A stretch of DNA of 64,000 nucleotides from positions 1-64,000 of the forward strand of contig NW_026611593.1 in the NCBI RefSeq assembly GCF_028502605.1. The letters are read 5' to 3'. The DNA is from Trichoderma breve (Eukaryota; Ascomycota; Sordariomycetes; Hypocreales; Hypocreaceae). This document shows, piece by piece, positions 1 to 37,412 of the stretch. The position numbers and the translations under genes are program-made. Below the pieces are notes generated by a model. The model had not been told where the DNA came from, searched no databases, and worked only from the letters and a program-made list of their open reading frames with translations. Position 1 is the stretch's first letter, and every line of letters begins with the position of its first letter.

Positions 1-91
1 TCCCTAACCCTAACCCTAACCCTAACCCTAACCCTAACCCTAACCCTAACCCTAACCCTAACCCTAACCCTAACCCTAACCCTAACCCTAA
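1..91. repeat. Telomere repeat array, (CCCTAA)n
   Basis: About 15 uninterrupted copies of CCCTAA read into the window, so the G-rich strand TTAGGG runs outward to the left. This is a true chromosome end rather than an interstitial block, because it starts at base 1 and passes directly into retrotransposon sequence at about base 92. No subtelomeric helicase gene lies next to it. Confidence 0.97.
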
Positions 92-3000
92 TACTAACGC
101 TTTAGATATTAAGCTAATTAAGGTAAGAAATAATATAAGGAAATTACTAAGGATAATAGTAGTAAACCTAGAAGAATAGATCTAGATATCCTATAGCGTA
201 AGAAGGAATTTAAGTACTATAATTACGGTAAGTCGGGCTATATAGTACAAAACTGCTAAGTACCTAAGAAAGAACATAAGAATAAGATTCTAGAACTAAA
301 AAGGGAAGTTTACCTTTTAGATAAAGAAAAACAATCCCTCGACCTATTATAACGAGAAGATAACAGCTACCTTTAACATAAGGAAGAATTAAAAGGAACA
401 GGTAAACTAAGGAGAATAACCCCGCCTAAGAATATACCTAATCCAGTTAAAAACCCTATAACTGAAGCTACAGCTTAGCGAAATTATAAGCTACTGCTAT
501 ACGAAAAATAAGTTAAGAACATTACTAACTTTATTAAAAGTAAATCCAATAAAATTAATAAACTTATTAAATTCTAATAATAAGTTAATATTTATAACCC
601 TAAATAAAATATTAAAACCTTTATATATTAAAAACTTTAGGACAGACTTATATAATAGTAACCCTATAATAATAAACAATAAATTATTATAAGTTTAAAT
701 ACAAATAAAATATAAAACCTTAAAGGAGACTACTAACAAATACCTTAAAACTACCTATAGGTTAATCCTACAAACAGTAATTACTACCGAATTTATTAAA
801 TAAACTACATTATTTACTAATATATATATTACCTAAAATAAAAGGTAAAATATAATACTTTCTTATACTAAAACTTAGTAATCTTTATTACAGACCCTTA
901 TTATAAAGGATAATATAGCAAATAGAAAGTTACTTATAAATTTTAAGAATTATAAATTATAATACTTAAACTTTACCTAACAGCGCCTTATAAATACCGG
1001 AATTATAAATAAACGGAAAATTACCTAACTTAATAGTATACTATTTATTAAATTATAAAGCTTATTTAATAATATAAATAGAATAAAGGAACTTACAATT
1101 ACCTATTTTAATAATATAGATAATATTAAGAATAGGATTATATATAGTATAGAAATAATAAACTAAAAGCCTGGTATAATAAAACTTTAGAAGAAAAATA
1201 AATCAAAGGCTAACGATTAGTAAACTAGCTATACTAAATTAAATTTAACTTTAAAACTTACGTAGGAGTACTTAAAAAGCTCCTTTAAAGATATTATAAA
1301 TTTTAAAAAACCCTTAATAACCTATAAAACAATAGAATTACTTATGATATATATATTAGATAAATAAGATAATACTATGGAGCAGTGGAATAGGATAACT
1401 GCGAGAACCTATACTATAAGTTATATATATTACGTAAAATTAAAGACTAGTACTTAAAAAACTAGAATAGTCTTTAGATAAAGGGTACTATAAGACTAAT
1501 AGAGAATTTATATTTTTTAAAAAGGAATATAAATATAATAGTAATAAAGAGAAAAAACATCTTAAAAAAAAAATTACTTTTATAATAATATAAAATAAAA
1601 AACTACTAAAAGTTATAATAAACTCTAAAGCAGATAGGAATTATATATTAGCTGTAACTGTAATACACCTACAGGTACTATAAAGATAAAAGAAGAAACT
1701 ATACTAACTCTTTTACGGAGAAGGAAAATAGTTTAAATATAATAATAAATAAATTAAGAGATAGACTAATTACCTATATTTTAAAGTATTTGGTTAAACT
1801 ACTTTAGTAATTTATAATATTATTAATACCCTAAAATAGAATATTGTCCTAAGTATACTATAGCTATACTAATATAAACCTTTAATAATATAAAGCAAAG
1901 GCCTAATTTATTAGCGAAATAATAAAGGAACTCTAGATTAAAAGGAGGATAGAGGAAGCTAGAAACCTTAACTCCTTAAGCTTAAAAAGATTCCTACGTA
2001 ATAACAATAAAAATAATTTAAAGCTGCAGAAGCTTAATCTTTAAAAAAGTTTACTAAAGGGAAACAAGACCTATATAAACTTAACTAATTCCTAGAACTT
2101 ATAGAAAAAAAACCCTAGGAAAGAGAAAATATATTAAAGGAAACCCCTATGCCTAAATAAAAAGAACTTATAAACCTAATAGCTAATATTCTAAAATAAT
2201 ACTAGAAGTTTAGGGCTTTATTTTAAAAGACCCTAATTAATCTAGATAAAAATATATAAATACTACTATATACTAAATAGGACTATATAATAAAACTAAA
2301 GGAAGGGAAGTAACTAAAACACTTTCTATTATATAACCTCAACTAGTTAAAACTAAATACCCTTAATAAATAAATATAAGAATAAAAGGAGAAAGGATAT
2401 ATTAGAATCTCTAATTCCCTAGTATAATACCCTATAATTTTTATTTTAAAGAAAAATAAAAAACTACAATTAGTCGTTAATTATAAATAACTAAATAATA
2501 TTACAATTAAAAATTAAACTCCTTTACCATTAATATCCAAAGTATAAGATTAATTATAAAAAGCTGTGATATACTCTTAGCTAGACTTTACTAATACCTA
2601 TAGATTAATATAAATAAAGGAAGGATATAAATAAATAATAGCTTTTAGTACCCCTGGAGAATTTTATAAATTTTTAGTAATACCTTAAGGACTAATAAAC
2701 GCACCTATATTTTTTTAAAAAAGGATTAATTATATCCTTTAGAAATATTGAAATAAATTTATTATTATTTACTTAGACGATATTTTAATATACTTTAAAA
2801 CAGAAGAAGAATACAAGGAATATATGCACTTAGTACTTTAAGTACTATAAGATAATTACCTCCTCGTAAACCCTAAAAAATATCAATTTTATACGCAAGA
2901 AGTAGAATTCTTAGGATATATTATTACCCCTAGATTTATATAAATAAACCTAAAGAAAGTTACCGTAATTAACGGATAGCTAATACCTATATCTGTTAAA

Positions 3001-6000
3001 AAAGTATAAAGTTTTATTAAATTAGCTAATTATTACTGACGTTTTATCCGGAATTTCTTAACTCTTGCTTAACCTTTAACTAATATAATAAAGAAAAATT
3101 AGAAATTTAAATAGACGGAAAAAGCGGAAGAAGTATTTTAAGTAATTAAGTAAGCTATAACCTCAGAACCTGTTTTAGCTATATATAATCCTAAAAGACT
3201 AATAGAAATAAAAACTAACGCATTAAAATACATAATTAAAGGAGTACTAAATTAATAAGACAATAAAGGAAAACTATACTTTATTATATTTTACTTACGA
3301 AAACTTAATAAAGCTGAACTTAATTACGCAGTCTATAATAAAGAATTCTTAGGAATTAAAAGCTGCTTAGAATAATAAAGTTAATACTATAGAGGAAGTA
3401 AATTTTAAATTAAAATCTTTACTAATTATTAAAATATTACCTACTTTACATTTACTTAGAAACTATCTAGACAACAGCTAGAATACTTTAAATTCTTAAG
3501 TAAATTTAACTATAAACTTATATACTATAAAGGATTAGAGAATAGAAGAGCTAATGTATTAAGCAGAAGAATTAACTATTTTTAAGAAATCCTTAACTAC
3601 TAAGGCACTATATTATACTAGAATATATAAGGTAATTATAAATAAAAATCTTTCAACCTAATTTTTAAAGTAGAAAAATATAATAAACTTTTTAAAGAAA
3701 TTAAGGAGTATATAAAAGATTAGGAACTATATTAGTTTCTATCTTAGGTTATATTACAGAATAGATATTCTATAAACAATAATAAATATTAGGTACCCCC
3801 TGAACTATAAAAGAAAGTTATAAAATACGTTTATAAATACCCTTTATTTAAATACTAAGGAATTATAACTACATATTAATAAGTACTTACGACGTATTAA
3901 TTTAAAGGAATAAAGAAAATTACCGCTAATATTATATTAACTTGCAATAAATATTAATATGCTAAATATAGAAGGTATAAGCTTTATAGAAAACTATAAC
4001 TTTTACTAATACCTAAATTACTATAGGAAATAGTTACCTTTAATTATATTACAGACCTACTACCCTTTAAAAAACCTTTCTTTAAGGCTATTTATAATAA
4101 TATTTTAGTAATAGTAAATAAGTTTACAAAACAAGTATACTTTCTACTTTACCAAAAATCACACTTAATAAAAGATCTTACATATATATACCTAAGGATA
4201 ATAGTAGCCGACTATAGTATACCCTAAGAAATTATTTTTAATAAAGGATAAACTTTTACCTTTAAATTCTAGTAAGAACTTATAGCTAGACTCAGAGTAA
4301 ACTATAAACTTAGCAGTATATACTACCCTGAAATAAATAATTAAATAGAACGGATAAATTAGATTATTAAATAGTACCTAAAATATTTTATTAACCTATA
4401 ATAAAACAACTAGGTTAATAAACTACCCTTTACTTAACTATATTACAACAGTATAAAATCTAAATTAACTAAGTTAACACTATTCTACGCTTTATATAGA
4501 TATACTCCCTTAGTATACCAGCCACCTTAGAAAGGACCTAACGTTAATAAAGCACAACTTTAAGCAAAATTAATAATTAACTTATATAAAAAATTAAAAA
4601 TATAGCTAAAATTTATTCAGAAGCATATAAAATATTATATAAATAAAAATAGGATTAAAAGACTAAACCTCTAGGAAGGGGATATAGTTTATCTACTTTG
4701 ATATATACAAGGCTATAAAATACTAAATATTAAAATAAATCGACTAAATAATAAGCTTAATTTTAGAAAAATCAGCCTATTTAAAATTTTAAAGAAAATT
4801 AGTAACGTTAACTATAAACTTAAAATACTAAAAGGTATATAACTAAAATACCTTATATTTTATATATTACTTTTAGAGAAAGTATAAATTAACAAAGTAA
4901 TAGAAAGATTAATTTTAAATAAAATTATTATTATTAAGGATAAAGAAGAATAAGAAGTTAAAAAAGTTTTAATAATACAAAGGAATTTAGAAGAAAATAA
5001 TAGAATTAAATACTAGGTTAGATAAAAAGGATATAATCTAATCTACAATACTTAGGAACCTATTAAAAACTTTAATTTAATAGAACTAATTTAAGACTTT
5101 TAGAAAAACTTAAGATTATATTTAAAACTCCTAACGCCAGCTACTTAATAAATAAAACTACCTAGAAAGAAGAAAGTATATAAGTTTCTTCCGTTAGCAT
5201 AAGAGGACCTAAATCTGCAAACTCTAAACTAATACCTAAGGAGGATTAATTAACGTTATTAAGGACTCCTAACTACTATAGGTTATATACCGTAAACTAC
5301 TTAGCTACTACCTTAGTATCCTCTTCCTTTATACCTTAATAAAATAACTTTTTACCCTACTCTTTAGCCTTTTTATATATTTTTTAAATACATAATAAAC
5401 GATCTAAGGCCTTAGCTAGCTAAGTCTAAAGCTTAAGTATTTAAGTATTAAGAGACTTAACCTATTTACCAGTCTCTTCTTCTTAACGCTTTAACGCCTA
5501 ATATTAAGCTAATACTTTTTCTACTAAAAAAAAAGTTATTAGAATATACTTATTAATAAATTAAGGATTACCTATAAAAACTTATTACTAAAACACTATT
5601 ATATAACTTCTGCACTTTTACGTAGTTGCTATAGTAAAAAAACGCTCCTAATATAATATATAGTAATTTAGTATAATAGTATTAAGTATAAGGTATATTA
5701 GTAAATAAACCTAAAGTAAGTACCTATTTAACAAAAGAAATAGTTTTACATTTTTTATAAATAGGTATAAGATTAAATATAGTACTATAATTATAAAAGA
5801 GGAAAATTACCTACTTACATTATATACTACTGCCTAAATTAAATAGCTAAGCCTTATCTTAAATCTTAAGGATAAGACTAATAGAAGGGGGTATTATATT
5901 ACAACCTAATCTTATATAATATTATAAATAAGTATTTTAGAATATCTGTTAAACCGTTTTAGCTAATTAAAAAAAGGAATAACTATATAATATTATTCCC

Positions 6001-6337
6001 TTAAAAAAGAATAACTAAGCTATATTATTCCTATATAAGAATAATAATTTATTAATATTTTAAGTATATGCAGGAATAATATACTATATTATTTCCTAAG
6101 AAACGACTGGATATATAAAATTTAATTTTTTATACTTTTTAAATAACTTAGATAAATAATTGTTAATAAAGTATTAAGATTAAATATAAACTAAATTTTT
6201 ATTATATTTTACTTACTTTGTAATTATATTTGCTTAAAGTTACTTCCTGTCCTCTTTACTAATATAAACTAATTAACCTTAGCTTATTACCTTAGGAACT
6301 TACCTTATATTATCTTAGTATTGGGTTGGGATGTTAT
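92..6337 (+). mobile_element. Retrotransposon A: RIP-degraded Ty3/gypsy chromovirus, 5'-truncated at the telomere
   Basis: The order gag, reverse transcriptase, integrase and chromodomain can still be read on the + strand despite constant stops. At about 222-264 lies a gag zinc knuckle in which the first two cysteines and the histidine read as tyrosine (KYYNYGKSGY...NC). Reverse transcriptase keeps YLDD at about 2769-2780, and LANYY-stop-RFIRNFL at about 3020-3060 is the gypsy NFYRRFI region with CGA turned to TGA. Integrase-like sequence spans about 3780-4500. At about 5010-5065 a chromodomain core of the V-R-W-K-G-Y...N-T-W-E-P kind has both tryptophans replaced by TAG. A purine tract AGAAGGGGG (5883-5891) precedes the 3' LTR. 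There is no 5' LTR: the copy begins inside gag, directly at the telomere. It is non-functional. Confidence 0.9.
5892..6337 (+). repeat. 3' LTR of retrotransposon A
   Basis: This stretch follows the polypurine tract. It shares with the LTR of element B an opening ATTACAACCTRATC, a central block from ACGACTGGATATATAA onward, and the whole right half ending near GGGTTGGGATGTTATA. The canonical TG...CA ends appear as TA...TA, as expected after C-to-T change. The boundaries were read from the A/B alignment and may be off by about 5 bp on the left. The U3 part (about 5910-6100) does not match U3 of element B. Confidence 0.75.
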
Positions 6338-9300
6338 ATTTATTAATTTTTAATTTTAAAAATATTTATAATAATTATAATAGTAAGTTAAATTACGTTT
6401 AAATATAAATAATTATGTACATAGGAAAAAAAAGCTAAGGAGCAGTTAGTTAAATATTAGTAAAAAGTTACTAAGGCTTTAGCTTATTTATTATATATTT
6501 ATTTTTAACGTAAATTTTTAATATATTAGGGTACTAAAATAGTTAATTAAGGCTTAAGGAGTTTAGATAAGTTAGATAATATAAAAAGGGTAGAGTTTAA
6601 GGCGGTAATTAATGTTTAAGTAGTAAAGGTAGTAAATATTATTAATTAAAACGTAGTTTTTAGCAATACCTTTTTAAATTTATTTAATCTTATTGTTAAT
6701 TCTTTTTCTTCCTAAATCTCCAGTTTAGGGTATAAAGATTTAAATCTTCCTATAGTAAGGGTGGGAATTTTAATACCCTTTTCTTTAGTTATTTCTTTAT
6801 TTATTAAGTAGCCGGTGTTTAAAGTTTTAGGTATAATCCTAAATTTTTCTAAAATTCCTAAATTAGTTTTATTATATTAAAGCTTTTAATAGGTTCTTAA
6901 GTATTATAGATTAGGTTATACCCTTTTTATCTAACTTAATATTTAATTTTATTATTTTCTTTTAAATTTCTTTATACTACTAAAACTTTTTTAACTTCTT
7001 ATTTTTCTTTATCTTTAATAATAATAATTTTATTTAAAATTAGTTTTTCTATTGCTTTATTAATTTATACTTTTTTTAAAAGTAATATATAAAATATAAG
7101 GTATTTTAGTTATATACCCTCTAGTATTTTTAGTTTATAATTAATACTACTAATTTTCTTTAAAATTTTAAATAAGCTGATTTTTCTAAAATTAAGCTTA
7201 TTATTTAGTTAATTTATTTTAATATTTAGTATTTTATAGCCTTATATATATTAAAGTAGGTAAATTATATCTTCTTCCTAAAGGGTTAGTCCCTTAATCT
7301 TATCCTTATTTATATAATATTCTATACGTTTTTAAATAAGTTCCAGCTGTACTTTAAGTTCTTTATATAAATTAATTATTAATTCTACTTAAAGTTGTAC
7401 TTTATTAATATTAAATCCCTTTTAAGGGGGCCTATATACTAAAGGAGTATATTTATATAAAGCGTAAAATAGTATTAGCTTAGTAGATTTAGATTTTATA
7501 CTATTATAATATAACTGTATAAGAGGTAGTTTATTAACCTAATTATCTTATTATAAATTAATAAAATATCTTAGGTATTACTTAATAATTTAATTTATTT
7601 ATTCTATTTAACTATCCGTCTTAGGATAGTATATACTACTAAGTTTATATTTTACTTTAAGTTTTACTATAAGTTTTTACTAAAATTTAAAAATAAAGGT
7701 TTATCCTTTATCTAAGATAATTTCTTAAGGTAGGCTATAGTTAGCTATTATTATCCTTATATATATATATACTAAATCTTCTGCTAAGTATAATTTATAA
7801 TATAGTAAAAAGTAAGCTTACTTTATAAACTTATTTACTACTACTAAAATACTATTATAAATTACCTTAGTAAAGGTTTCCTTAAAAAGTAGTAGATTTA
7901 TAATATAATTAAAGGTAACTGTTTCCTATAGTAGTTCTAGTATTAATAAAGGTTATAGCTTTTTATAAGGTTTATATTATTTATGTTTAATACATTAATA
8001 TTTATTATAAGTTAATATAATATTAGCGGTAATTTTCTTTATTCCTTTAAATTAATATATTATAAGCACTTGTTAATATATAGTTGTAATTCTTTAATAT
8101 TTAAATAAAGGGTATTTATAAATATATTTTATAACTTTCTTTTGTAATTTAGAAGGTACCTAGTATTTATTTTTATTTATAGGATACTTATCCTATATTA
8201 TAATCTAAGATAAAAACTAATATAGTTCTTAGTTTTTTATATATTCCTTAATTTCCTTAAAAAGTTTATTATATTCTTCTACTTTAAAAATTATATTAAA
8301 AAATCTTTATTTATAGTTACCTTATATATTCTAATATAGTATAATACCTTAATAATTAGGGATTTCTTAAAAATAGTTAATTCTCCTACTAAGTATATTA
8401 GCTCTTCCGTTTTCTAATTTTTTATAATATATTAATTTATAATTAAATTTATTTAAAAATTTAAAGTATTTTAGTTATTATTTAAATAGTTTCTGGGTAA
8501 ATGTAAAGTAAGTAATATTTTAATAGTTAATAAAGATTTTAATTTAAAACTTACTTACTTTATAGTACTAACTTTATTACTCTAAGCAGCTTTTAATTTT
8601 TAAAAATTCTTTATTATAAACTACATAATTAAGTTTAGCTTTATTAAGTTTTTATAAGTAAAATATAATAAAGTATAGTTTCTTTTTATTATTTTATTAG
8701 TTTAGTACTCCTTTAATTACATATTTAAATATATTAATTTTAATTTCCACTGGTTTCTTAAGGTTATATATAACTAAAATAGGTTCTAAAGTAATAGCTT
8801 ATTTAATTACCTAAAATACTTATTTAGCTTTTTTTATTTATTTAAACTTCTAATCTTTTTTTATTATATTAATTAAAGGTTAAGTAAAGATTAAGAAGTT
8901 TTAAATAAAATATTAATAATAGTTAGTTAGTCTATAGAAACTTTATATTTCTTTAACTAACGTTAGTGTTAGCTATTTATTAATTACAGTAACCTTTTTT
9001 AAGTTTATTTATATAAATCTAAGGGTAATAATATATTTTAAAAATTCTACTTCTTTAGTATAAAATTAATATTTCTTAGGGTTTATAAGGAGGTAATTAT
9101 TTTATAATACTTAAAGTACTAAGCGTATATATTCCTTATATTCCTTCTCTATTTTAAAATATATTAAAATATTATTTAAATAAATAATAATAAATTTATT
9201 TTAAAATTTCTAAAGGACGTAATTAATTTTTTTTTAAAAGAATATAAGTACGTTAGTTAATCCTTAAGGTATTATTAGAAATTTATAAAATTCCCCTAGG

Positions 9301-12300
9301 GTACTAAAGGCTATTATTTATTTATATCCTTTCTTTATTTATATTAATCTATAAGTATTAGTAAAGTTTAACTAAAAGTAAATTATAGCTCCTTATAGTT
9401 AATCTCTTACTTTAAATATTAGTAATAAAGGGGTTTAATCCTTAATTATAATATTATTTAATTATTTATAATTAATAACTAAGCGTAGTTTTTTATTTTT
9501 TTTTAAAATAAAAATAATAAGATAGTATACTAAGGAGTTAAAGATCTTAATATATCCCTTCTCCTTTTGCTCCTATATCTATTTATTAAGAGTATTAAGT
9601 TCTAACTAATTAAGGTTATATAATAGAAAGTACTTTAATTACTTCCCTTTTTTTAGTTTAATTATATAATCCTATTCTATATATAGTAGCAGTTGTATAC
9701 TTCCATCTAAATTAGTTAAAGTCTTTTAAAATAAAGCTTTAAATTTTTAATATTATTTTAGAATATTAGTTATTAAATCCACAGACTTCTTTATATTCTA
9801 TTTATTTATAAAAGTTTTATTAAGGAGTAATAGTACTTATAATATTACTTCTAATACCTTAGGTATATCTCCTTATTCCTTATATTATTTAATTATCCTT
9901 TTTAATTATTATAAAGTATAATTTTTTTCCTAAGGTTCCTTTATAAATTCTAAAAATTAATTAAGTTTATATAGGTTTTATTTCCCTTTAGTAAACCTTT
10001 TTAAGTAATAAACTTCTGTAGCTTTAAATTATTTTTATTATTATTACATAGGAATCTTTCTAAGCTTAAGGAGTTAAAATTTTTAACTTCCTCTATTCTT
10101 CTTTTAATCTAAAGTTTTTTTATTATTTCGTTAATAAATTAAGCCTTTACTTTATACTATTAAAGGTTTATATTAGTATAACTATAGTATACCTAAAATA
10201 ATATTCTATTTTAGGGTATTAATAATATTATATATTACTAAGGTAGTTTAACTAAAGACTTTAAGGTATAAATAATTAGTTTATTTCTTAATCTATTTAT
10301 TATTATATTTAAACTATTTTCCTTCTTTATAAAAAAGTTAGTATAGTTTCTTCTTTTATTTTTATAGTAATTATAGGTATATTATAGTTATAGCTAATAT
10401 ATAATTCCTATTTACTTTAAAGTTTACTATAACTTTAAGTAGTTTTTTATTTTATATTATTATAAAAGTAATCTTTTTCTTAAGATATTTTTTCTTTTTA
10501 TTACTATTATATTTATATTCCTTTTTAAAAGATATAAATTCTTTATTAATCTTTTAGTACCCTTTATCTAAAGACTATTCTAGTTTTTTAAGTATTAATC
10601 TTTAATTTTATATAATATATATAATTTATAATATAGGTTTTTATAGTTATTTTATTTTACTATTCTATAGTAAAGTTTTATTTATTTAATATATATATTA
10701 TATATAATTCTATTATTTTATAAATTATTAAAAGTTTTTTAGAATTTATAGTATTTTTAAAGGAGTTCTTTAGGTACTTTTATATAAGTTCTAAAGTTAA
10801 ATCTAATTTTATATAATTAGTTTATTAGTTATTATACTTTAGTTTATTTTTCTTCTAAGGTTAAATTATATTATTCCTTTAGTTTAAACTTTTAGTATTT
10901 AAGGTAGTTTAGTTCATTATATTATTAATACTATTTAAAGGTATATACATTAGTTCCTTTATTTTATTTATACTACTAAATAAGTTTTAGGGTTTAGTAA
11001 ATAATATATTATTAATTTAAGTAATTCTTTATTCTTTTATAATTTTTATATTTAAAAAGTATTATTAAGTAAGGTTTAAGTATTATAATTTATAGTTTTT
11101 AAAATTTATAAATAACCTTCTATTTATTATAATATCCTTTATAATATAGTTCTATAATAAAAATTATTAAATTTCTTTATAAAAAAGTATTATATTCTAC
11201 CTTTTATTTTAAGTAATATATATATTAGTAAGTAATATAGCTTATTTAATAGATTTTATAATAGTTATTATTAATAGGGTTAATTTATAAATAATCTTAA
11301 GGTACTTATTAATAATCTCCTCTAAAGTCCTATATTTTATCTACATCTAGGCTTATAATAATTTATTATTTATTATTATATAGTTATTATTAAGTAAGTC
11401 TATTTCTAAGTTTTTAATATATAAAGGGTTTAATATTTTATTTAGGGTTATAAGTATTAACTTATTATTAAAACTAAGTAAGTTTATTAATTTCCCTAGA
11501 TTTACTTTTAATAAAATTAATAATATTACCAGGTTATCTTTTAAACTAGGGTAACCTATAGTTTCATAAAGTTATATTTTTAATTATAAGGCCCCTTACT
11601 AAGTTAGGCACCAGTAAAATAGTAAATTCTTTTAATTTAAGGTCTTCCTCTTACCAAGGGTAGTTATTATCTTCTTATTATAATAAATTAAAGAATTATT
11701 TTTCTTTATCCAGGATATAAACTTCTCTTTTTAGTTTTAGAATCTTATCCTTATATTCTTTCTTAAGTACTTAGTAGTTTTAAGCTATATAGCTAGATTT
11801 ACTGCAATTATAGTACCTAAACTCTTTCTTATACTATAAAATATTTAGATTTATTCTTCTAGGTCTTCTGCTATTATTTTTAGTAATTTCTTTATAATAT
11901 TTTTTACCTTAATTTACTTAATAACTAAAGCTATAGTTTTTATAATTCTTCTATCTTTTTTTTATATAAAATTTAAACAGTAGGTTATTTTAATCTATAG
12001 CTTTTTATTAAAATTCTACTAAGGAAATAGCTTTTTATTAATATTTATTAACTTTTTCTTTTACTTTATATTTAAGGCTATTATAGAATATTTTCTTTAA
12101 TAATTTAAAGTCTTATTTAAATTAAAAAGCTATTTTATTAAACTTAACTATATAAGTAGTACACTTTTTAGTTTATTTAAGGTTAATAAGCTTATTTTCT
12201 AAAGCTTATTATTCTCCTATATTAAGGAATATTTTAACTAATTCTTATTTAAAGTAGCAAATACTTAAGTATATTTAAATAGTAATAGTAGATTTTTTAT

Positions 12301-13208
12301 TAATTAAGCTATTATTTTTATAATCTTCCTAAAATAGTTAAAACTAATTTTTAGTAACTTCTTTAAAATAAATAGTAATAAAAGTAACTTTAGCTTCCTT
12401 TTTTATAAAGGTTTATAAAAAATTATAAATATAGTAATAAAGTTTAGTAATAAATAAGTAAAGTTTTTTAAAACTTTTATTAAAAGGTTTAAGGTACTTA
12501 AGTTTTATAATATTTTTATTTTCTTTTTTAAAGCCTTTGGATTTTTTTTTTTTATTATTTAAAATACTAAAAAATTATTTATTAATATAAAATATATTTT
12601 AAAGGTATTCCTTTAAAGCATCTTCTTTAAGTTTATTCTAATTAAGCTTATTAGTAAAAGTAAGGTTTTTATTAATATCTTTAAGTTAAATAAATTTAAA
12701 AATAAAGATAAGGTTAGTAATTAAAGTAACTCCTTCTATATTAACATCTATTTCTCTAGCTATAATAATTTATTACTTAAAAAAACTTAGTATTTTTTTA
12801 AATAAAAGTTATTAACGTATAATATCCTAACCTAATATTAAATAATATAAGGTAAATTCCTAAGGTAATAAGCTAAGGTTAATTAGTTTATATTAGTAAA
12901 AAAAATAGGAAGTAACTTTAAGTAAGTATAATTATAAAATAAGTAAAATATAATAAAAATTTAATTTATATTTAATCTTAATACTTTATTAATAACTGTC
13001 TATTTAAGTTATTTAAAAAGCATAAAGAATAGAATCTTATATATCCAGTCGTTCTCTTAAATTACAGTTAAATTACGGTTCTATTAGATTACGATAGATT
13101 ACGATAGTGATCTATTAGGGGTGCGCTGCATAAGTGATCCTCTCCTGATTGGTTCTTCGGTCCGTACTTTAACCGGAGTACGTACCTATGCTGGATCAGG
13201 TTGTAATA
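6338..13208 (-). mobile_element. Retrotransposon B: RIP-degraded Ty3/gypsy chromovirus in inverted orientation to A
   Basis: Read on the - strand this is the same family as element A, base for base over long stretches. A 2785-3100 matches B about 9175-8860 (YLDD region), and A 5040-5100 matches B about 6905-6840 (chromodomain). The two copies therefore form an inverted repeat with arms of about 5 kb whose centre lies near 5.95-6.0 kb. The gag zinc knuckle is at about 11830-11770. B starts with a 5' LTR at its right end, but at its left end its 3' non-coding region runs straight into the LTR of A with no LTR of its own that I can see. Stops occur in every frame, so it is non-functional. Confidence 0.88.
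12818..13208 (-). repeat. 5' LTR of retrotransposon B, partly spared from RIP
   Basis: On the - strand it runs from TATTACAACCTGATC (13208) to GGTTAGGATATTATA (12818). About 12818-13050 aligns with the right half of the A LTR. About 13070-13208 has balanced base composition (for example GGTGCGCTGCATAAGTGATC on +), so the C-to-T decay stops inside this LTR. That well-preserved part is a U3 unrelated to the U3 of A. Confidence 0.75.
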
Positions 13209-20483: not shown

Positions 20484-21150
20484 GTCATAAGATTTGATAA
20501 TTCTGTAGGCGGCCTACAACATTTATTAGCAAGGTTCCTCTGCGTATTTTCGTTTGTCTAAACTTTAGTATACTATACTTACGAAAGGATTCAGTGTTTC
20601 TCTGCCTCCTTTAATACTTAGATATTTTAGGAAAACAAAAGCGGAAATGTATAAGACGGGAGATTAGGGAAAATAGCGTAATAAACTATATAGGAATTGT
20701 TATATATACTCACTATCCAATAGTAACATTAATATAAAAGCTTAGTTTAGTTAATTTAAGTAGTAAGTCCTAAAACTATTATTAAATTATTGTAAATAAG
20801 TACTTATATATTTTGCCCAAAATAGTCGAAATTGCTCTATGAAAATAGTCGCTACGGTGTATTGTATATGTTAGTATCACGTATTTTTATTAACATTCTT
20901 ATACCTTTCTCACTAATTATTGCCGAGACCAATGGCTGTCGCTACCTTAAGGATATAATGACACCGGCTCTCAATCCAAAGTATCATCAAGCGCTTCGAT
21001 GCTCCGCCACAGGCTGCGATTTTGCAAATTGACCAACCAAGGTATGATGCAGCCCAGCACTATGTCGCGCATACATAAGTTAGCTTCCTTAATCTATCTA
21101 GCCTTAGAGTGACACAGAAGGCTGGGACAAAATTATGCTCTTGTTTATTA
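20484..21150. other. Intergenic, AT-rich, no gene seen
   Basis: AT-rich between about 20640 and 20830. The short frames here show no domain or composition typical of coding sequence. Confidence 0.4.
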
Positions 21151-21590
21151 GTCGGCCTCCAAAAAGGTCATGTTGGTCAGCCTTGAAATAGAATTTTTGG
21201 TTGGCCTCCAAAAAGTGGTATTTAGTCGGCCTCCAAAAAGGTCATGTTGGTCAGCCTCAAACAGAATTTTTGGTTGGCCTCCAAAAGGTAGTATTTAGTC
21301 GGCCTCCAAAAAGGTCATGTTGGTCAGCCTCAAACAGAATTTTTGGTTGGCCTCCAAAAGGTAGTATTTAGTCGGCCTCCAAAAAGGTCATGTTGGTCAG
21401 CCTTGAAATAGAATTTTTGGTTGGCCTCCAAAAAGTGGTATTCAGTCGGCCTCCAAAAAGGTCATGTTGGTCAGCCTTAAAATAGAATTTTTGGTTGGCC
21501 TCCAAAAAGTGGTATCCAGTCGGCCTCCAAAAAGGTTATGTTAGTCAGCCTTAAACAGAATTTTTGGTCGGTCTCCGAAATAATTTTGGA
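21151..21590. repeat. Minisatellite, about six copies of a 73-74 bp unit
   Basis: Units start with GTCGGCCTCCAAAAAGG at 21151, 21225, 21298, 21371, 21445 and 21519, giving periods of 74, 73, 73, 74 and 74. Each unit itself contains two related halves, each with YGGCCTCCAAAAAG, separated by TTGGTCAGCC and a GAATTTTTGG spacer. Two variants alternate: the CCTTGAAATAG...AAAAAGTGG type (1, 4, 5) and the CCTCAAACAG...AAAGGTAG type (2, 3). Copy 6 decays into TCGGTCTCCGAAA. It ends about 245 bp before the start of the deaminase-like gene. Confidence 0.92.
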
Positions 21591-21834: not shown

Positions 21835-23506
21835 ATGAATTCCTCTTCAACCTCACGTATTACGGTTCGTCTCAATGAGAGTAAGCTTGAACAGCTTTCA
21901 TACCTCTGCCTCCTTTTGGTAGCCGTAAATAAGGCTTGTATCAATAGGAAGGGCTCTACCTATACCTCAGGTAGCGGGAGTAAGGATAAAACTCTTACAG
22001 AGTTTCAGAAGTTTCTTACCAAGCTTGCATTGATTTGCGATACTCTGAAAGGGGAACACGGCCGTACCGTAACTGCTCTTGTCTGTCTCAAGGGAATCAA
22101 TGGCCCTGAGTACATTTTTACTTCCAATTTCAGGAAGCTTACAGAGCTTGAAGAAACAAAGTTATTCCTCTCCAGCTTGCTAACATTTGTTGGAACCAAT
22201 CCCGACAGCCTTCAGCCGAAACCGCTACAGAAGCAAGTTCTGTGGAGGAGTCTTGTATTCAACTTTGATAAGGTGGACTTTTACTTGACATCTTTGATCG
22301 ATGTATTGGATGATTGCATTGATAATGAGAGTCGCAGAGGATTAATTGGTCAGTATAAGCCAAAGGCAGCCTGCGCTTCACCTTTTGTGATTCCATCTTA
22401 TTAATCTAGCCAACTCTAATAGATTCCGAACCATTAAAGCAGCTACGCTATCTGCAAGAAAAAGCAAGTTTCCCTCGTGATATAACATCGTCGGACAATG
22501 CTCGTAACAAATGTAAGATACCCTTGCTCAGTATGTACTCGAGGCCTTTCCTTACGCGATAATGCTAAATGTTGTTATTCTTCTAGTCTTGAGAGACTGC
22601 GAAACTCTAATCAAGGCGATTCAAGCTTACAAAACTGGCTCTTTCGAAAAGACCCTTCAAAACCGCACTGTGGAAAAAAATACAGATGCTGCAGACTGGT
22701 GTACGCTTCGCCATTACCTTGGGCGCCTCCATTCTTACCGGCAGGCCTCAGAGATTATAGTCAACGCAGCTACTACATGGCCTGACCTATTCAAAAATCA
22801 TCGGGTCGACTATATCAATTCTGCTTTTAAGAAACGCATCCCTACACCAAATTTAACGGACTTGAACGATATTATTCCCATTGCGCTTCCCGGACATGAA
22901 GCGTCCGATTTTGAATCTGATATTAGTGAGCTGAGGATTCACGAGCTGGACAATATAATCCACAAGCAACTTCAAAGCTGGAGAATAAAGACTATGGTTC
23001 ACTGTGAGGTCCATCTTCATAACCATCTAGTTCAAAAAGGGAAAACAAGCTCTACCGATTTCTGGAGCGGTGCTATGTTCATAGCTACGTCCAAGCCCAC
23101 CTGCAGACTATGTCATCTCTATTTCAACAACCCTAGCAACGAATTTCAAGTTCAGACATCGCATATGAATCTCTATCCGAAATGGCGTCTCCCTGATATC
23201 TATGAGGACCAAGGTGCTGATACTAAAGATTCTTGTGAAGAGCTACTGCAAGATCTAATTGAGCAGTTTCAACAGGATTTGATCCTGATGCTGAAACAAA
23301 AAGAACCAAAAGGAAAAACTCACGACTCGCGGACAGATTCACACTCCAGAGTATCGACTAGAGTATCATATTTAGGGGAAGGGTTACGAGATACGCCACA
23401 TGCATTGTTAGCAGAGAGGCAAGGAAGATTTCACGGATTGTCCAGCCCGTCTTCTGAAGACGCCGAATGGCGTGATCTTCCGGAGGATATTGTTCACGCT
23501 ATATGA
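21835..23506 (+). CDS. Deaminase-fold protein of the fungal OTT_1508-like family
   Basis: Three exons (21835-22348, 22423-22512, 22587-23506) total 1524 nt, 507 residues, with clean GT..AG sites and phase. Intron 1 uses GTCAGT and joins GLI|DSEPLKQLRYLQ. The C-terminal half carries the zinc-deaminase signature: HCE in MVHCEVHLHNH (about residue 340), then SKPTCRLCHLYF giving CxxC, followed by SHMNLYPKWRLPDI. This arrangement is that of the OTT_1508-like deaminases found in fungi and intracellular bacteria, whose substrates are unknown but are suspected to be nucleic acids or nucleotides. The N-terminal 200 residues match nothing I recognise. Unlike the two genes on its left, it has no stops. 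Confidence 0.75.
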
Positions 23507-32118: not shown

Positions 32119-33338
32119 ATGCTCTTCTCTTCTATTGCCATTGTTGCGGCAGCAACTGCTGCCTTGGCATCGCCGGTAAAGCCAAGTGCCAAGACTGCCG
32201 CGCTATCAGTGAAGCGTGTCTCGAACGTCAAATCATTGAAGAATATTGTCCAAAAGGGCCAAGCACGCATCAACAAGATCAATGGCGTCAAGGACATCGA
32301 GGCCAGAGCTAGCGGCCCAGTTACCAACGAGGATGTTAGCTATGTTGCCTCAGTCACTATCGGTGGTCAATCTTGGGACCTCATCGTCGACACTGGATGT
32401 ACGTCATCACTACATAGACACTGAACAACGCATGTGCTGACCTGATATCCTAACTAGCTTCAAACACGTGGTGTGGTGCCCAACGCTCATGCGAGCCTTC
32501 ATCTACTGGCAAGTCCACGGGCGGTTCCGTCCAGGTTAGCTATGGTTCCGGCTCCTTCTCCGGCACCGAGTACAAGGACACAGTTAGCTTCGGTGGTTTG
32601 ACTGTCACATCACAGTCGGTTGGAGCTGCCCGTTCATCCTCTGGCTTTTCAGGTGTCGATGGAATTATTGGCTTTGGTCCGGTGGATCTCACTGAGGACA
32701 CCGTCTCCAACGCCAACACGGTTCCAACCTTCCTGGATAATCTCTACAGCCAAGGTTCCATCTCGACTGAGGTGCTGGGTGTTTCCTTCAAGCCAGAGTC
32801 TGGCAGTGACAGCGATGACACCAACGGCGAGTTGACCCTCGGCGGTACTGATAGCTCCAAGTACACGGGCTCTCTCACCTACTTCTCAACTCTCAAGAGT
32901 GGCTCTGCTGCTCCCTACTGGGGCATCTCTATTGCTAGTTTCACCTACGGCTCGACGACCCTCGCATCGTCTGCGACCGGCATTGTCGACACTGGTACTA
33001 CGCTCATCTACATCCCCACCAAGGCTTACAATGCATTCCTGTCTGCCGCTGGTGGCAAGACTGACAGCTCTTCTGGCCTCGCCGTCTTCTCAAAAGCGCC
33101 AACATCCAACTTTGCTATCAAGTTTGGCTCAACGACCTACACCCTCACACCTTCTCAATACTTGGTTCCCACCGCTCAGTACAGCTTCTACGGACTCAGC
33201 TCTGGAAAGTACTACGCTTGGATTAACGACGGTGGCAGCTCGGGTGTGAACACCATTATTGGTCAGAAGTTCCTGGAAAACTACTACTCCGTTTTTGATA
33301 CTACCAACGGCCGCATCGGCTTTGCTACCGCCGCTTAA
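32119..33338 (+). CDS. Secreted pepsin-like aspartic protease (family A1)
   Basis: Two exons (32119-32398, 32458-33338), 1161 nt, 386 residues. The 59-nt intron splits the first catalytic motif: IVDTG|SSNTW. The second catalytic motif is GIVDTGTTLIYIP. A signal peptide (MLFSSIAIVAAATAALA) and a propeptide of about 50 residues ending near ARASG precede the mature enzyme. The flap region is VSYGSGSFSGTEY. The C-terminus NTIIGQKFLENYYSVFDTTNGRIGFA is typical of endothiapepsin/aspergillopepsin relatives. It degrades protein outside the cell at acid pH. Confidence 0.95.
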
Positions 33339-33674
33339 ATGAATGCATGTTCATTTTTCTCCTGCTCATGAATACAACCACAGCGTAGTCTTCACGGGCA
33401 ATTATCACTATTGTCCTATATGATGAATATGTTGATTCATTGGAGGGCTGCAAGGCAGCTGGGGATTCACACCTGTTTTAGTACTCACGAGTAGTGCCAG
33501 TCTTAGTTAGCTTCCAGCTCTAAGTGTAGTGGGAATAAATGCGTTAAACTATATATTCTTGAATTGAGAGTGATGTATGAACACTATAACAGATGGAGGT
33601 TAATTTATTTTCCACCGACGATGCCGCTTGACTTTACACGACCGCGTACAACGGATGCTGTGACTACATGTAAT
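33339..33674. other. Intergenic between convergent genes
   Basis: 3' ends of the aspartic protease and of the RNase T2-FAD oxidase gene; no other feature seen. Confidence 0.5.
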
Positions 33675-36600
33675 CTAGACCAAACCAGCTACATCACTGA
33701 GTGGATCTCCGTAAGCATCATCTGGATTGTCTCCGACGCAGTGATGGCACCACAAATGGTTGCCCGGGTCGTGCGCTTTCTTGATGGCCAGCAGCTGTTG
33801 GTATAATGCCTGGCCCCAATAGCGAGATGTCCAATTGTGCATGACGTAGGAGCTCTCAGAGAAATAGCTGTTCGGACCAATGCGATACAAAGTGTGCATT
33901 GACTGTTGGGTGGTCAACGTACGCGCATTCCATAACATCACAGCTGAGCGAAAGCCAGGTGAGATGGCCGTATCGCCTGGCTGTGGACTCCCCAAATTGC
34001 CTGTCAACGAAGTGTAGAGGTAGTGAAAGCCACAGCGATGACCCGTTGGATCTGGCGAAGTTGTGTCAGGATTCTTCAAGGATGCCACGCAAATATCCAG
34101 CACCTCCATCATCGTGGGGGCGAACTTCGTTTCCATGGCTTGTCGTGACACAAAAACCGAATTTTGGGAGCCGGTAGCATTGTCAGAAGGCGGGTGTGGA
34201 GCAGGGAGAGGGTTACCGACGGCGAGCAGAAATTTGTCGGCCGGCATGCTGAGCACGTAGTCATAGGCCGACTTGAAGTTACGCTCCTCTATGGCCGTCA
34301 CCTCCAGCACTGACTTGAGTCGGTCGCGGAATAGACGGTAATTCGGCTCCTTTTCACCCCCTGCGTAGAAATATTCGAAATTGAATTTCCATGTGACTGC
34401 GCAAAGACCGCCGGTCTTATAATTGGAAGTATCGATGAAGAATGCTGCCTGCGTGCTGACCTTGGAATTCAACAGGAGCGTCCAAGCAGAGAATCGATTC
34501 CACATGGCCCTCAGCCACTCATAGCCAAACGGACTTGAATCGGGACAGAAGGTGCCGTTTTGGATCATCAAGACGTGGCTGAGACCACCATCAGGGACAG
34601 CGTGTGCTCGGATCGTCATGGAGAGAATCACACCCCACACGCCTCCACCGCCGCCGCGCATGGCCCAGAAGAGCTGCGGGTTGTGCCGTCGGCTGGCCAC
34701 CTTCTTGTGGACTACCGGTTGACCGTGCGCGTCCTGACCGACTTGCATGACTTCAATCTCCAGCACATTGTCCACACCGAGTCCCATGGAGGGGCCAAAG
34801 GGGCCATGGCCGCCCCCGAGATGGAAACCGACCATGCCAACCGTGGAGCACCAGCCCGACGCAATGACGCGGTTATACTGCTTAGAGAAGGCGTGCATCT
34901 CGGCGAAGACTGCGCCTGCGCCAAACTTGAATGCACCGCTCGGAGCAAGGACTGGGTCCTCCTCCCACTTAGAGATGAAAGATTTGTCTTTGAGCAAAAT
35001 GGTCCGGATGAGGATTCCGCCGGTCGGGCAGGAGTTACGACTGTTGTACTCGTGGCCTGAACCGGAAGTCGAGATGCATAACCGGTGACGGACGGCGAAG
35101 TTCAAGGCTCTGGCAACGTGTCGCTCGTTGAGAGGGAACACCACAATGAATGGATTCCAATCTCGGTACTCATTCTGGTGGAGAGCCGCCTTGCACATGT
35201 CGGACACATTGTTCCATTCTGTGGAGTTGCTGGATGCCTTGAAGCATGAGCGCCTCATCTCATTCACATCCTCATAATAATACAGGGCCTTAAACCCCGT
35301 AGCCGTATTTCCCAGGCCATAAAAGGATTGGTTGTTGAAGGAGCCGGTCGGCACTGGTGCCGGCTGCGGCTGCGGGTAACTAGCCCACTTGAGACCGAGC
35401 CGTGGTTCATTGGGGTCTAACTCTTGCTCCAGCTCTTGGATGGCTGTCTTGGTGGGCCAGCAACTCGAGTCATCAGGCGTGCACCAATCGTGGCGTATCT
35501 GGAGCAGATCTGTTACATCGCGTGGCTGTGGGGACCGCATGGATGGCACCGACTTGGCCGGGTCGCAGGATCCAGCTCCGCAGTAATCGTTCTCAGGGCC
35601 ACAGGAATAAGAACAATGTAAGCTGCATGGGTTGCAACGGCCCATGGCCCATTGCGTGTGCGGCGGGAGGAAGCTTTCTTCTACGTCATCTGGCGCCAGT
35701 CGATTCGGAGCACCGCAACGAAGAGTAGCGTAGGAATAGACCGGATGATATTGGAACTGGAAGTGGCAGGTGGTGATGCTGCCACTGGTGCTGGCGAGGA
35801 ATATTGTATTGTGACCATCGTCTGAATGGGTGACTGCGTAACGCTGCACTCCGCGACTTGGGTAATTTGGCCATTCTAGTGATGCCTGGCCGTCGGCAGT
35901 GAAGTTCCATCGAGCCAGGCCCTCTTGATAGTGGTTGGATACTTGGAGCGAGCGCCATATGCCTAGCAGTGCTGAAGGCACACCGGCAATGCCCGGTTGA
36001 TATGGGCTCAGAGGGCTGGGCTTAGACGCCTTGCTGACTGGTGAGTGCTGCAGTGAAGCGGCGGCAGGGTTAATGTCGGGCGAGAAGACACAGCCCGGGG
36101 CCAAAGACGACTTGCAGCGAAACATGAGGAAGTTGCCACAGTTGGGAGTGTCCATTGCAGCGTAAAAGTCGACAGGTGCCGGGAGACCAGTGTGGTTACA
36201 AGCGAAGAAGGCCACCTCGAGGCCACTAATGTCTGGCAGTCGCTTGATCAGGCAGTCTTCCAAGTGATGATTCGTACCACAATTCTTCAAGACAATTTCT
36301 CGGTCGGATCGAGGTCCGTAAGCACACGTTTGGGGGTAAGGGCTGTCAGTGGTGACTGTCAGAGTGTCCTCCGTAAAAGTCTGAGCGAATTCGAACTTGC
36401 CAGACCCGTGCTGCTCAGCTCCAAACGAACGCCATGTGCCCTTCCAGGGAGAGATTATGTCACTTGATAGCTCTGGCATCCCGAACCCAACATTGGGGAT
36501 ACTATAATTCTGGATTGGCATGGGTGCGTTGGTGGGATCAAGCAAGACAGTGCTGTCGAGATTGGCGGGAGGGCAGTTGGCCCAGGAGTCACTGCATGCA

Positions 36601-37412
36601 AAGCATTGATCAATGCACTCGCGAGACATCCTGGGGACACTATTCACCGTGTTGTCCGTCCAGCCAATTGTGGCGAGATATGCACATTGCACGCAGCTGG
36701 CACTGATAATCGGTTCTATATCCTTCAACCTTTTCTGCAGAGCCGGGTTGGCGTTGTACTCATTGGTCAGCACGAAAGCTGTGCGGTAATATGCTTCCTG
36801 TGGCATGCGAAACGCACTGCCGTCAGCCCCAGGTATGACGGCACATGTGCCGTGCTTCATCCACTCGGACAGGATGAAACACTGCATGGTGTTGTTATAC
36901 TTGGCGTCGGTCGGCCAATAGTAATGCAACAGACTTCCAAAAATTGTGAGATACGATTCGTCGAATTCTTCACCATGCTTACAGCCATAGGGCTGATTCT
37001 TTTCTCCACTCCCACCTTGGGAACCAGGCCACAGTCCGTGCAACGTGACTTTAGGTGAGCCCGGGGCAAAGTCATTCTGCTGCAATGCCAGCGTGTAGCC
37101 GTCGGTAGGCAGCAGCCCTGCAGGCTTGTGCTTGCCATCGCACAGAGAGAAGGGAGGTGGTTTCTGCTGCATGCTTTTGTCTTTACCCAAAATGGTGCAT
37201 CCCCGCGTCCACTTAAGGTTGCACGTATCAACGTGATAATTGACGGCACTGAAGCGCTTGTCAGGAATCGGGTTGGAGGCACAACTGTCCGAATGACCGG
37301 TACATGAGGCGGCAGCACCAGCGACCAGACACGCCAATGCCACCAAGACCAATGTAAGGCGTATGTGATACGGCCATAGCGTTGGCATTGCGCTTGGATG
37401 TGGCCGAGTCAT
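33675..37412 (-). CDS. Fusion protein: secreted RNase T2, tandem WRS-type repeats, berberine-bridge-type FAD oxidase
   Basis: One intronless frame of 1245 codons. I start at ATG 37412, which gives a signal peptide (LTLVLVALACLVAGAAA); the frame is open for 84 codons upstream but that part has no such character. RNase T2: CAS I is TLHGLWP (His about 125) and CAS II is SEWMKHGTC (Glu 183, His 187), so both catalytic sites are intact. Residues about 325-590 hold two related segments, each starting GTWRS/GIWRS, of unknown function. A Cys-rich linker follows (about 592-620). The oxidase spans about 640-1245. SGSGHEYNSRN (His 787) and SGWCSTVG (Cys 855) correspond to the two covalent FAD attachment sites. 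GGGHGPFG follows, and the C-terminus HNWTSRYWGQ...IKKAHDPGNHLWCHHCVG is the BBE element. It is less AT-rich than its neighbours. Probably secreted; its task is unknown. Confidence 0.88.
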   Translation of the reverse strand: MTRPHPSAMPTLWPYHIRLTLVLVALACLVAGAAASCTGHSDSCASNPIPDKRFSAVNYHVDTCNLKWTRGCTILGKDKSMQQKPPPFSLCDGKHKPAGLLPTDGYTLALQQNDFAPGSPKVTLHGLWPGSQGGSGEKNQPYGCKHGEEFDESYLTIFGSLLHYYWPTDAKYNNTMQCFILSEWMKHGTCAVIPGADGSAFRMPQEAYYRTAFVLTNEYNANPALQKRLKDIEPIISASCVQCAYLATIGWTDNTVNSVPRMSRECIDQCFACSDSWANCPPANLDSTVLLDPTNAPMPIQNYSIPNVGFGMPELSSDIISPWKGTWRSFGAEQHGSGKFEFAQTFTEDTLTVTTDSPYPQTCAYGPRSDREIVLKNCGTNHHLEDCLIKRLPDISGLEVAFFACNHTGLPAPVDFYAAMDTPNCGNFLMFRCKSSLAPGCVFSPDINPAAASLQHSPVSKASKPSPLSPYQPGIAGVPSALLGIWRSLQVSNHYQEGLARWNFTADGQASLEWPNYPSRGVQRYAVTHSDDGHNTIFLASTSGSITTCHFQFQYHPVYSYATLRCGAPNRLAPDDVEESFLPPHTQWAMGRCNPCSLHCSYSCGPENDYCGAGSCDPAKSVPSMRSPQPRDVTDLLQIRHDWCTPDDSSCWPTKTAIQELEQELDPNEPRLGLKWASYPQPQPAPVPTGSFNNQSFYGLGNTATGFKALYYYEDVNEMRRSCFKASSNSTEWNNVSDMCKAALHQNEYRDWNPFIVVFPLNERHVARALNFAVRHRLCISTSGSGHEYNSRNSCPTGGILIRTILLKDKSFISKWEEDPVLAPSGAFKFGAGAVFAEMHAFSKQYNRVIASGWCSTVGMVGFHLGGGHGPFGPSMGLGVDNVLEIEVMQVGQDAHGQPVVHKKVASRRHNPQLFWAMRGGGGGVWGVILSMTIRAHAVPDGGLSHVLMIQNGTFCPDSSPFGYEWLRAMWNRFSAWTLLLNSKVSTQAAFFIDTSNYKTGGLCAVTWKFNFEYFYAGGEKEPNYRLFRDRLKSVLEVTAIEERNFKSAYDYVLSMPADKFLLAVGNPLPAPHPPSDNATGSQNSVFVSRQAMETKFAPTMMEVLDICVASLKNPDTTSPDPTGHRCGFHYLYTSLTGNLGSPQPGDTAISPGFRSAVMLWNARTLTTQQSMHTLYRIGPNSYFSESSYVMHNWTSRYWGQALYQQLLAIKKAHDPGNHLWCHHCVGDNPDDAYGDPLSDVAGLV

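Follow-up and report, generated by a model that had tools for sequence, protein, structure and literature searches.

A single uninterrupted frame of Trichoderma breve (33675..37412, minus strand; 1245 codons and a stop) encodes a ribonuclease (RNase) T2 joined to an oxidase of the berberine-bridge (BBE) type that binds flavin adenine dinucleotide (FAD). The gene lies in a 64-kb stretch of DNA, here called the window, with which contig C7 of an assembly of 38.5 Mb and nine contigs begins; all features of the gene given below lie on its minus strand. Based on the translation, Pfam matches and full-length relatives, the complete open reading frame reads as RNase T2, two segments predicted to be lipocalin-like, a Cys-rich linker and the oxidase. 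The protein belongs to a family with largely conserved active sites and oxidase-type oxygen gatekeepers; among its complete members, about half carry a tail resembling an endoplasmic reticulum (ER) retrieval signal. Tentatively, and at slightly less than an even chance in our estimation, these proteins are interpreted as a family of two-activity enzymes of the secretory pathway, which would combine RNA digestion by the T2 part with a covalent-FAD, peroxide-making oxidase and would be either exported or stored in the ER.

Both halves are recognized by hmmscan against Pfam. Ribonuclease_T2 (PF00445) matches residues 120-228 (36729..37055) with an E-value of 5.9e-14 and 53 bits, against a curated cut-off of 26, and FAD_binding_4 (PF01565) matches residues 756-889 (34746..35147) with 6.4e-13 and 49 bits, against a cut-off of 26.4. 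The BBE C-terminal motif (PF08031; residues 1191-1224; 33741..33842) falls just below its cut-off of 20.6, at 20.3 bits and 5.7e-4; it is above the cut-off in all six of the scanned relatives that reach the C-terminus (P0067, P0069, P0074, P0075, P0046 and P0013). The original prediction, made by a model from the DNA alone, had seen two enzymes in one uninterrupted frame, and both the frame and the domain search that it proposed bear this out. The N-terminus, residues 1-36 (37305..37412), is signal-peptide-like, as judged by eye from the hydrophobic stretch LTLVLVALACLVAGAAA and by comparison with the N-termini of relatives. Upstream, the open frame extends to 37664, but the start at 37412 is preferred because the N-termini of P0003 and P0004 resemble that of the window protein.

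A word-based search with the whole chain (E up to 0.001) returned 75 proteins (P0002-P0076). The fungal-type relatives number 72 (P0002-P0073; 56-98% identity), and 67 of them have precomputed annotations for both PF00445 and PF01565. Those without both are P0026, P0070, P0071, P0072 and P0073, several of which are visibly truncated or misjoined models; in P0072, a Fusarium agapanthi model, the C-terminus of the fusion continues into a PF20516 protein, and the model may be misjoined. The nearest relative, from Trichoderma sp. SZMC 28012, is 98.0% identical to the window protein. Sources include Trichoderma, Fusarium and relatives, Beauveria, Stachybotrys, Sordaria and relatives, Colletotrichum and Apiospora among the Sordariomycetes; Myriangium, Elsinoe and Boeremia among the Dothideomycetes; and two species of the basidiomycete Naganishia. 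The names given by the sources vary from 'hypothetical protein' to 'isoamyl alcohol oxidase', '6-hydroxy-D-nicotine oxidase' and 'ribonuclease T2'. That an assembly or gene-call artefact had joined two genes is therefore virtually impossible: the rarity of the domain combination, and nothing else, speaks for it, but the frame is free of stops and a matching chain occurs in many independent genomes and contigs, so that the relatives already refute it.

Two more fusions lie beyond the fungal type, P0074 (from EukProt) and P0075; P0076 is a plain oxidase match. The domain order of the fungal type is T2, segment 1, segment 2, oxidase. In P0074 both segments precede T2 and the oxidase, and P0075 consists of T2 and oxidase, with no match to the segments. 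These varied orders argue that the domains belong together. By BLAST, the oxidase of the window protein is 41% identical to that of P0074 over 600 columns (1e-154), and the two segments are 39% (2e-22) and 37% (6e-29) identical to theirs. The T2 match reaches 29% over 102 columns (E 0.004). T2 is thus the most diverged part relative to P0074 and P0075, with 28-29% identity compared to 41% for the oxidase, and this part would therefore be either fast-evolving or separately acquired. In an 18-row T2 tree, a single clade of fusion T2 domains has a p of 0.379 in the approximately unbiased (AU) test, and two other groupings have 0.478 and 0.460; the tree is compatible with one gain of T2 as well as with two. 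A search with T2 only gave 11 matches, namely ten fungal-type T2 sequences at 53-80% identity and P0087 at 27%. Several of the ten are visible pieces of fusions, and P0078, P0079 and P0080 (284-294 residues) may be either first exons or true standalone T2 proteins.

The original prediction knew of no described enzyme with this architecture. Indeed, no description of an RNase T2-oxidase fusion was met in the literature searched, locus tags included, with subscription papers and supplements outside its scope. The architecture is not unique, given the 72 fungal-type relatives; the family is widespread, but apparently undescribed. As a refutation, the original prediction had named a known, widespread family of exactly this architecture; its wide spread is borne out, whereas no description was met in the literature searched.

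The T2 head largely keeps both active-site segments (HGLWP and EWMKHGTC) that had been noticed in the DNA. Conservation was counted on a family alignment of 73 rows, taking the non-gap rows at each site. The first conserved active-site segment (CAS I), TLHGLWP at 37026..37046, contains the catalytic His125, which is His in 69 of 69 rows. CAS II, SEWMKHGTC at 36843..36869, contains Ser182, Glu183 and Lys186 (each in 70 of 71 rows) and His187 (71 of 71). The residues used for T2 membership, i.e., the two catalytic His of CAS I and CAS II and the Glu and Lys of CAS II, are all present. Ser182 sits where classical T2 enzymes have a His, which P0074 and P0075 keep; this His was treated as usual for T2 enzymes, not as defining. 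PDB matches by sequence for the head include the plant RNases NW, MC1 and LE. With these, RNase LX and FoRnt2, the fusion shares CAS I and II, both catalytic His, the Glu and Lys, and secretory entry. It differs by the Ser in place of the first CAS II His, by long Cys-rich extensions and by the oxidase joined on; FoRnt2, for instance, has its T2 domain in a chain of 263 residues (PMC9366063). A PF00445 search of the T. breve genome found four T2 places besides the fusion gene. In two other T2 genes of this genome, L010 and L011, a Ser/Thr-rich linker is followed by a C-terminal extension, an architecture unlike that of the fusion.

The Ser in CAS II throughout the fungal-type family, together with the divergence of T2 from P0074 and P0075, could mean that only one of the halves still acts as an enzyme, with T2 binding RNA or cell surfaces and the oxidase working alone, or the reverse. 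We regard this as quite unlikely, since the near-invariance of both catalytic His, Glu183 and Lys186 is unexpected for a dead domain.

In the oxidase part, the FAD-linking residues seen by the original prediction are near-invariant across the family: His787 in 72 of 73 rows and Cys855 in 72 of 72. Oxygen access in BBE-like oxidases is set by a Gly two positions before the FAD-linking Cys and a Val three positions after it (PMC4898691, PMC4513132). The corresponding gatekeepers of the fusion, Gly853 (72/72) and Val858 (71/71), lie with both FAD-linking residues inside the FAD_binding_4 match and are of the oxidase type, and production of hydrogen peroxide (H2O2) is therefore likely; the earlier claim of an H2O2-producing oxidase is consistent with this, as an activity predicted from sequence. 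A His eight residues past the FAD-linking Cys is reported to matter for the second covalent bond, the C-S bond (PMC4898691). At this site the fusions have Phe (51/71; also in the window protein), Tyr (11/71) or Trp (9/71), and the adjacent His is invariant (71/71).

The best PDB match of the oxidase is MtVAO615, both by sequence (1.9e-24) and by fold (6f72; Foldseek 2.1e-18, from a model with a mean pLDDT of 65.1). MtVAO615 and MtVAO713 (6f74) are flavoproteins of the vanillyl-alcohol oxidase (VAO) type from Myceliophthora; they align with the fusion in the FAD-binding part as well as in the C-terminal motif, but these proteins are standalone and the fusion oxidase is only a remote relative. 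The fold family is also shared with the AA7/BBE-like oligosaccharide oxidases, such as the Phytophthora galacturonide oxidases, which are secreted (PMC12537922), and plant OGOX and CELLOX, which release H2O2 (PMC10011498). Unlike the fusion, these are standalone enzymes with established substrates.

Between both catalytic parts lie two segments that the original prediction called related 'WRS' segments. The first (residues ~322-437; 36102..36449) is predicted to be lipocalin-like from the structure model, and the second (residues ~480-600; 35613..35975), in which eight strands are predicted, is probably of the same kind according to the model and hhalign. Both have a GxW start and eight strands each in the predicted model, features that may point to lipocalin-like proteins, and lipocalin structures (e.g., 4iab, 4i95 and 4gzv) are among the best VIA rows, only slightly above other rows. 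Sequence comparison supports their relatedness weakly: a BLAST of one segment against the other is not significant (E 0.73), and hhalign gives a score of 23.1 (probability 9.5, E 0.0034), with ten control comparisons at 17.4 or below. The Cys-rich linker, as read from the translation, covers residues ~588-620 (35553..35651).

The C-termini of the family follow a pattern of their own. A C-terminus was called complete when the HHCxG motif occurs within the last 160 residues, which holds for 67 of the 73 members, including the window protein; P0043, P0056, P0057, P0064, P0065 and P0072 are incomplete by this rule. An xDEL end is found in 34 of the 67 complete members (18 KDEL, 8 RDEL, 5 HDEL, 2 QDEL and 1 GDEL), and four more end in KHEL, AEKL, QAEL and QDKL. 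Among 117 control oxidases (P0088-P0204), no DEL, EEL or NEL end occurs, and the expectation by chance from tail composition is about 4.5 in 10,000. The xDEL tails are 23-56 residues long and varied in sequence, the tag being kept though the rest of the tail varies. On a 60-row tree built without the tails, in which 30 rows are tagged, the xDEL history requires at least eight changes. Judged from these ends, about half of the complete members should stay inside the cell. Secretion, claimed in the original prediction, is therefore doubtful for many members and does not hold as a family-wide trait, although the window protein itself is untagged, as are the named Trichoderma and Naganishia rows. 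A tag hidden past the stop of the window gene was considered and rejected, as no DEL followed by a stop occurs in any coding-strand frame over 33201-33760. P0069 ends in a hydrophobic, membrane-like segment, as seen by eye.

From these features we infer both activities, their coupling and the following role. The T2 head would cut RNA, the two lipocalin-like domains would serve to hold a ligand or surface or to bring it into position, and the covalently flavinylated BBE-type oxidase would convert O2 to H2O2 while oxidising its substrate. The most likely role would be digestion of RNA freed from lysed or dying cells, combined with local peroxide production. Untagged members, in Trichoderma and others, would be exported, and xDEL-tagged members would be retained in the ER and released upon hyphal damage or death. 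Storage and release would explain the tails as well as the pairing of an RNA-digesting with a peroxide-making activity. A precedent by analogy may be tomato RNase LX of Lehmann et al., reportedly a T2 RNase that is retained in the ER and expressed in dying plant cells, with HDEF as its ER-retention tail (cited in PMC6032998).

Several points weigh against this interpretation. The RNase activity may be reduced, as CAS II is without one usual His, and the second covalent FAD bond is not certain, as the His at position +8 is replaced. The full-chain AlphaFold2 model, with a mean pLDDT of 65.1, is too weak for domain placement. Moreover, the xDEL rows are related and hence not independent trials, the window protein has no ER-retention tetrapeptide (its C-terminal tail, 33675..33728, ends in AGLV), and roles may differ between members with and without a tag.

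To place the oxidase among its relatives, the oxidase part of P0075 was searched and the best 120 of 123 matches were taken. Among the matches listed are 50 solo oxidases (P0088-P0137; 478-680 residues), 13 of them with MMETSP or EukProt names, including 'Mesvir1', presumably the alga Mesostigma viride. They are 30-38% identical to the P0075 oxidase part, and most aligned rows share a Cys...CWP start; they differ from the fusions in having no T2 domain listed and in being too short for the barrels. P0090, P0091, P0097, P0100, P0107 and others carry the JGI name 'ribonuclease T2' though no T2 domain is listed, the name perhaps being copied from fusions. The SGWCxxVG pattern occurs in 73 of 75 fusions. 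Among the solo oxidases, 35 of 50 match SGWxxxVG, and the FAD-linking Cys is present in none of these; among the other 15, P0121 and P0123 have a Cys at or beside its place.

An oxidase tree of 71 rows was built from ten fusions (eight of the fungal type, P0074 and P0075), the 42 solo oxidases longer than 520 residues, 15 ordinary BBEs and four outer rows. The ordinary BBEs are every third of the 44 matches P0138-P0181, 11 being from named fungi, and T. breve's own BBE loci were left out. The outer rows are labelled bacterial, with a bacterial name only on P0185. All ten fusions fall into a single clade (100/100), closest to six solo rows (95/99), and fusions and solo oxidases together form a clade of 52 rows (100/100). 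Of the ordinary BBEs, 14 stand apart from this clade and P0177 joins the four outermost rows, so the fusions do not cluster with the sampled fungal BBEs. A bacterial or a viral source was also considered. One pattern scan of prokaryotes (84,980 species) with oxidase alignment A4, whose nine rows are P0075 and eight solo oxidases, found one weak relative, from Arthrobacter (L014, 34%). No relative of P0075 was found in viral contigs with a scan sensitive to close relatives only. The fusion oxidase thus looks like a eukaryotic lineage, nested among sequences that, where named, derive from collections of microbial eukaryotes. These sequences are compatible both with old inheritance followed by many losses and with transfer into fungi. 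The literature searched ties no substrate to this clade, no search having been aimed at the clade alone.

The solo oxidases also bear on the suggestion that the oxidase acts on the products of the RNase, e.g., the ribose 5'-OH, in a two-step RNA pathway. That the shared domains occur in two orders, one in the fungal type and one in P0074, suggests that they are functionally linked, and VAO-fold enzymes, to which the PDB neighbours belong, oxidise alcohols and in many cases accept sugars. However, the clade's solo oxidases carry no T2 domain in their chain, and we know of no enzyme of this family that uses nucleotides; the literature searched for a nucleoside oxidase with flavin and hydrogen peroxide yielded only another enzyme. 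We therefore consider such a pathway very unlikely. An extended version is highly improbable: the T2 head would free ribose ends that the oxidase would turn into oxidised nucleotides and H2O2, and with the tagged enzyme stored in the ER, free RNA would trigger a peroxide burst upon damage.

Within fungi, the distribution of the fusion shows signs of movement. Ten rows were compared over 939 shared columns with the window protein as reference. Identity is 88.5% for T. velutinum, 86.0% for P0003, 81.4% for Naganishia onofrii, 78.7% for T. atroviride, 78.3% for T. viride, 74.5% for N. liquefaciens and 74.3% for Trichoderma sp. SZMC 28014. The N. onofrii copy is thus closer to that of the window than the copies of three Trichoderma species are, and closer than to its congener, the two Naganishia copies being 75.6% identical; T. 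velutinum and SZMC 28012 are still closer to the window protein than N. onofrii is. In the 60-row tree, the Naganishia pair joins P0003 (SH-aLRT 98) and then the Trichoderma trio of the window (99), the group that holds T. viride and T. atroviride lying apart. A single clade of all Trichoderma copies was rejected (p 0.025; 26 rows, one of three uncorrected tests), and single clades of all ascomycete copies (p 0.487; 26 rows) and of the Dothideomycete copies (p 0.378) were not. Lateral movement among fungi is the simplest reading of these sequences; old duplications followed by losses would be an alternative.

Fifteen CCCTAA repeats stand at 2-91 of the window, which places the gene about 34-37 kb from the telomere. 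A second full-length copy was not found in the T. breve genome, 21 other matches being oxidase parts only. The original prediction had noted that the gene is intronless and less AT-rich among intron-bearing neighbours and had taken this as a hint of possible transfer from outside fungi. The difference in composition is confirmed: GC content is 54.7%, and 62% at third codon positions (GC3), higher on both counts than in ten other frames measured in the window (GC 44.0-53.2, GC3 42.8-61.5). However, at eleven other loci of the genome (L002-L012) the longest frames range from 47.2 to 57.9 in GC and from 41.4 to 73.7 in GC3; the gene falls within both ranges, and its composition does not support a recent foreign origin.

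The subtelomeric place, the patchy spread with its signs of lateral movement and the untagged window protein would all suit a secreted weapon, as originally proposed, that directs RNase and peroxide at competitors or hosts. Solo T2 (PMC9366063) and solo BBE enzymes (PMC12537922) of plant pathogens are, moreover, reported to aid infection. These infection-linked enzymes are different proteins, however, and the ER-retrieval-like tails in 34 of the 67 complete members speak against this role; we judge a weapon to be unlikely.

Several other features were observed in the window. After the telomere repeat, positions 1-13000 hold about 13 kb at 15-27% GC with large inverted repeats (2177-5156 with 6796-9775, 84%; 504-2103 with 9942-11541, 83%), so that the chromosome ends in an imperfect, AT-rich palindrome. 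A tandem array at 21148-21580 has a 74-base unit in 5.9 copies with 94% matches, and the open frame 22562-23506 encodes an OTT_1508-like deaminase domain (PF14441, 3.2e-19). Convergent with the fusion gene, and about 340 bases from its stop, is a pepsin-like aspartic protease (32119-33338), of which frame 32598-33338 matches PF00026 (7.9e-36) and frame 32119-32424 looks like the first exon.

Altogether, two textbook secreted enzymes are joined in one chain across many fungi, with the domains reordered in a EukProt protein. The reordered fusion, the single clade of the ten fusion oxidases tested, the lipocalin-like prediction and the pattern of ER tags are new in this analysis. In about half of the proteins with a complete C-terminus, the ER-retrieval-like tails call into question export, the usual assumption for both enzyme families. 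The recurrence of the union of T2 and oxidase indicates that RNA cleavage and flavin oxidation are truly connected in function, a connection that the literature searched does not address.

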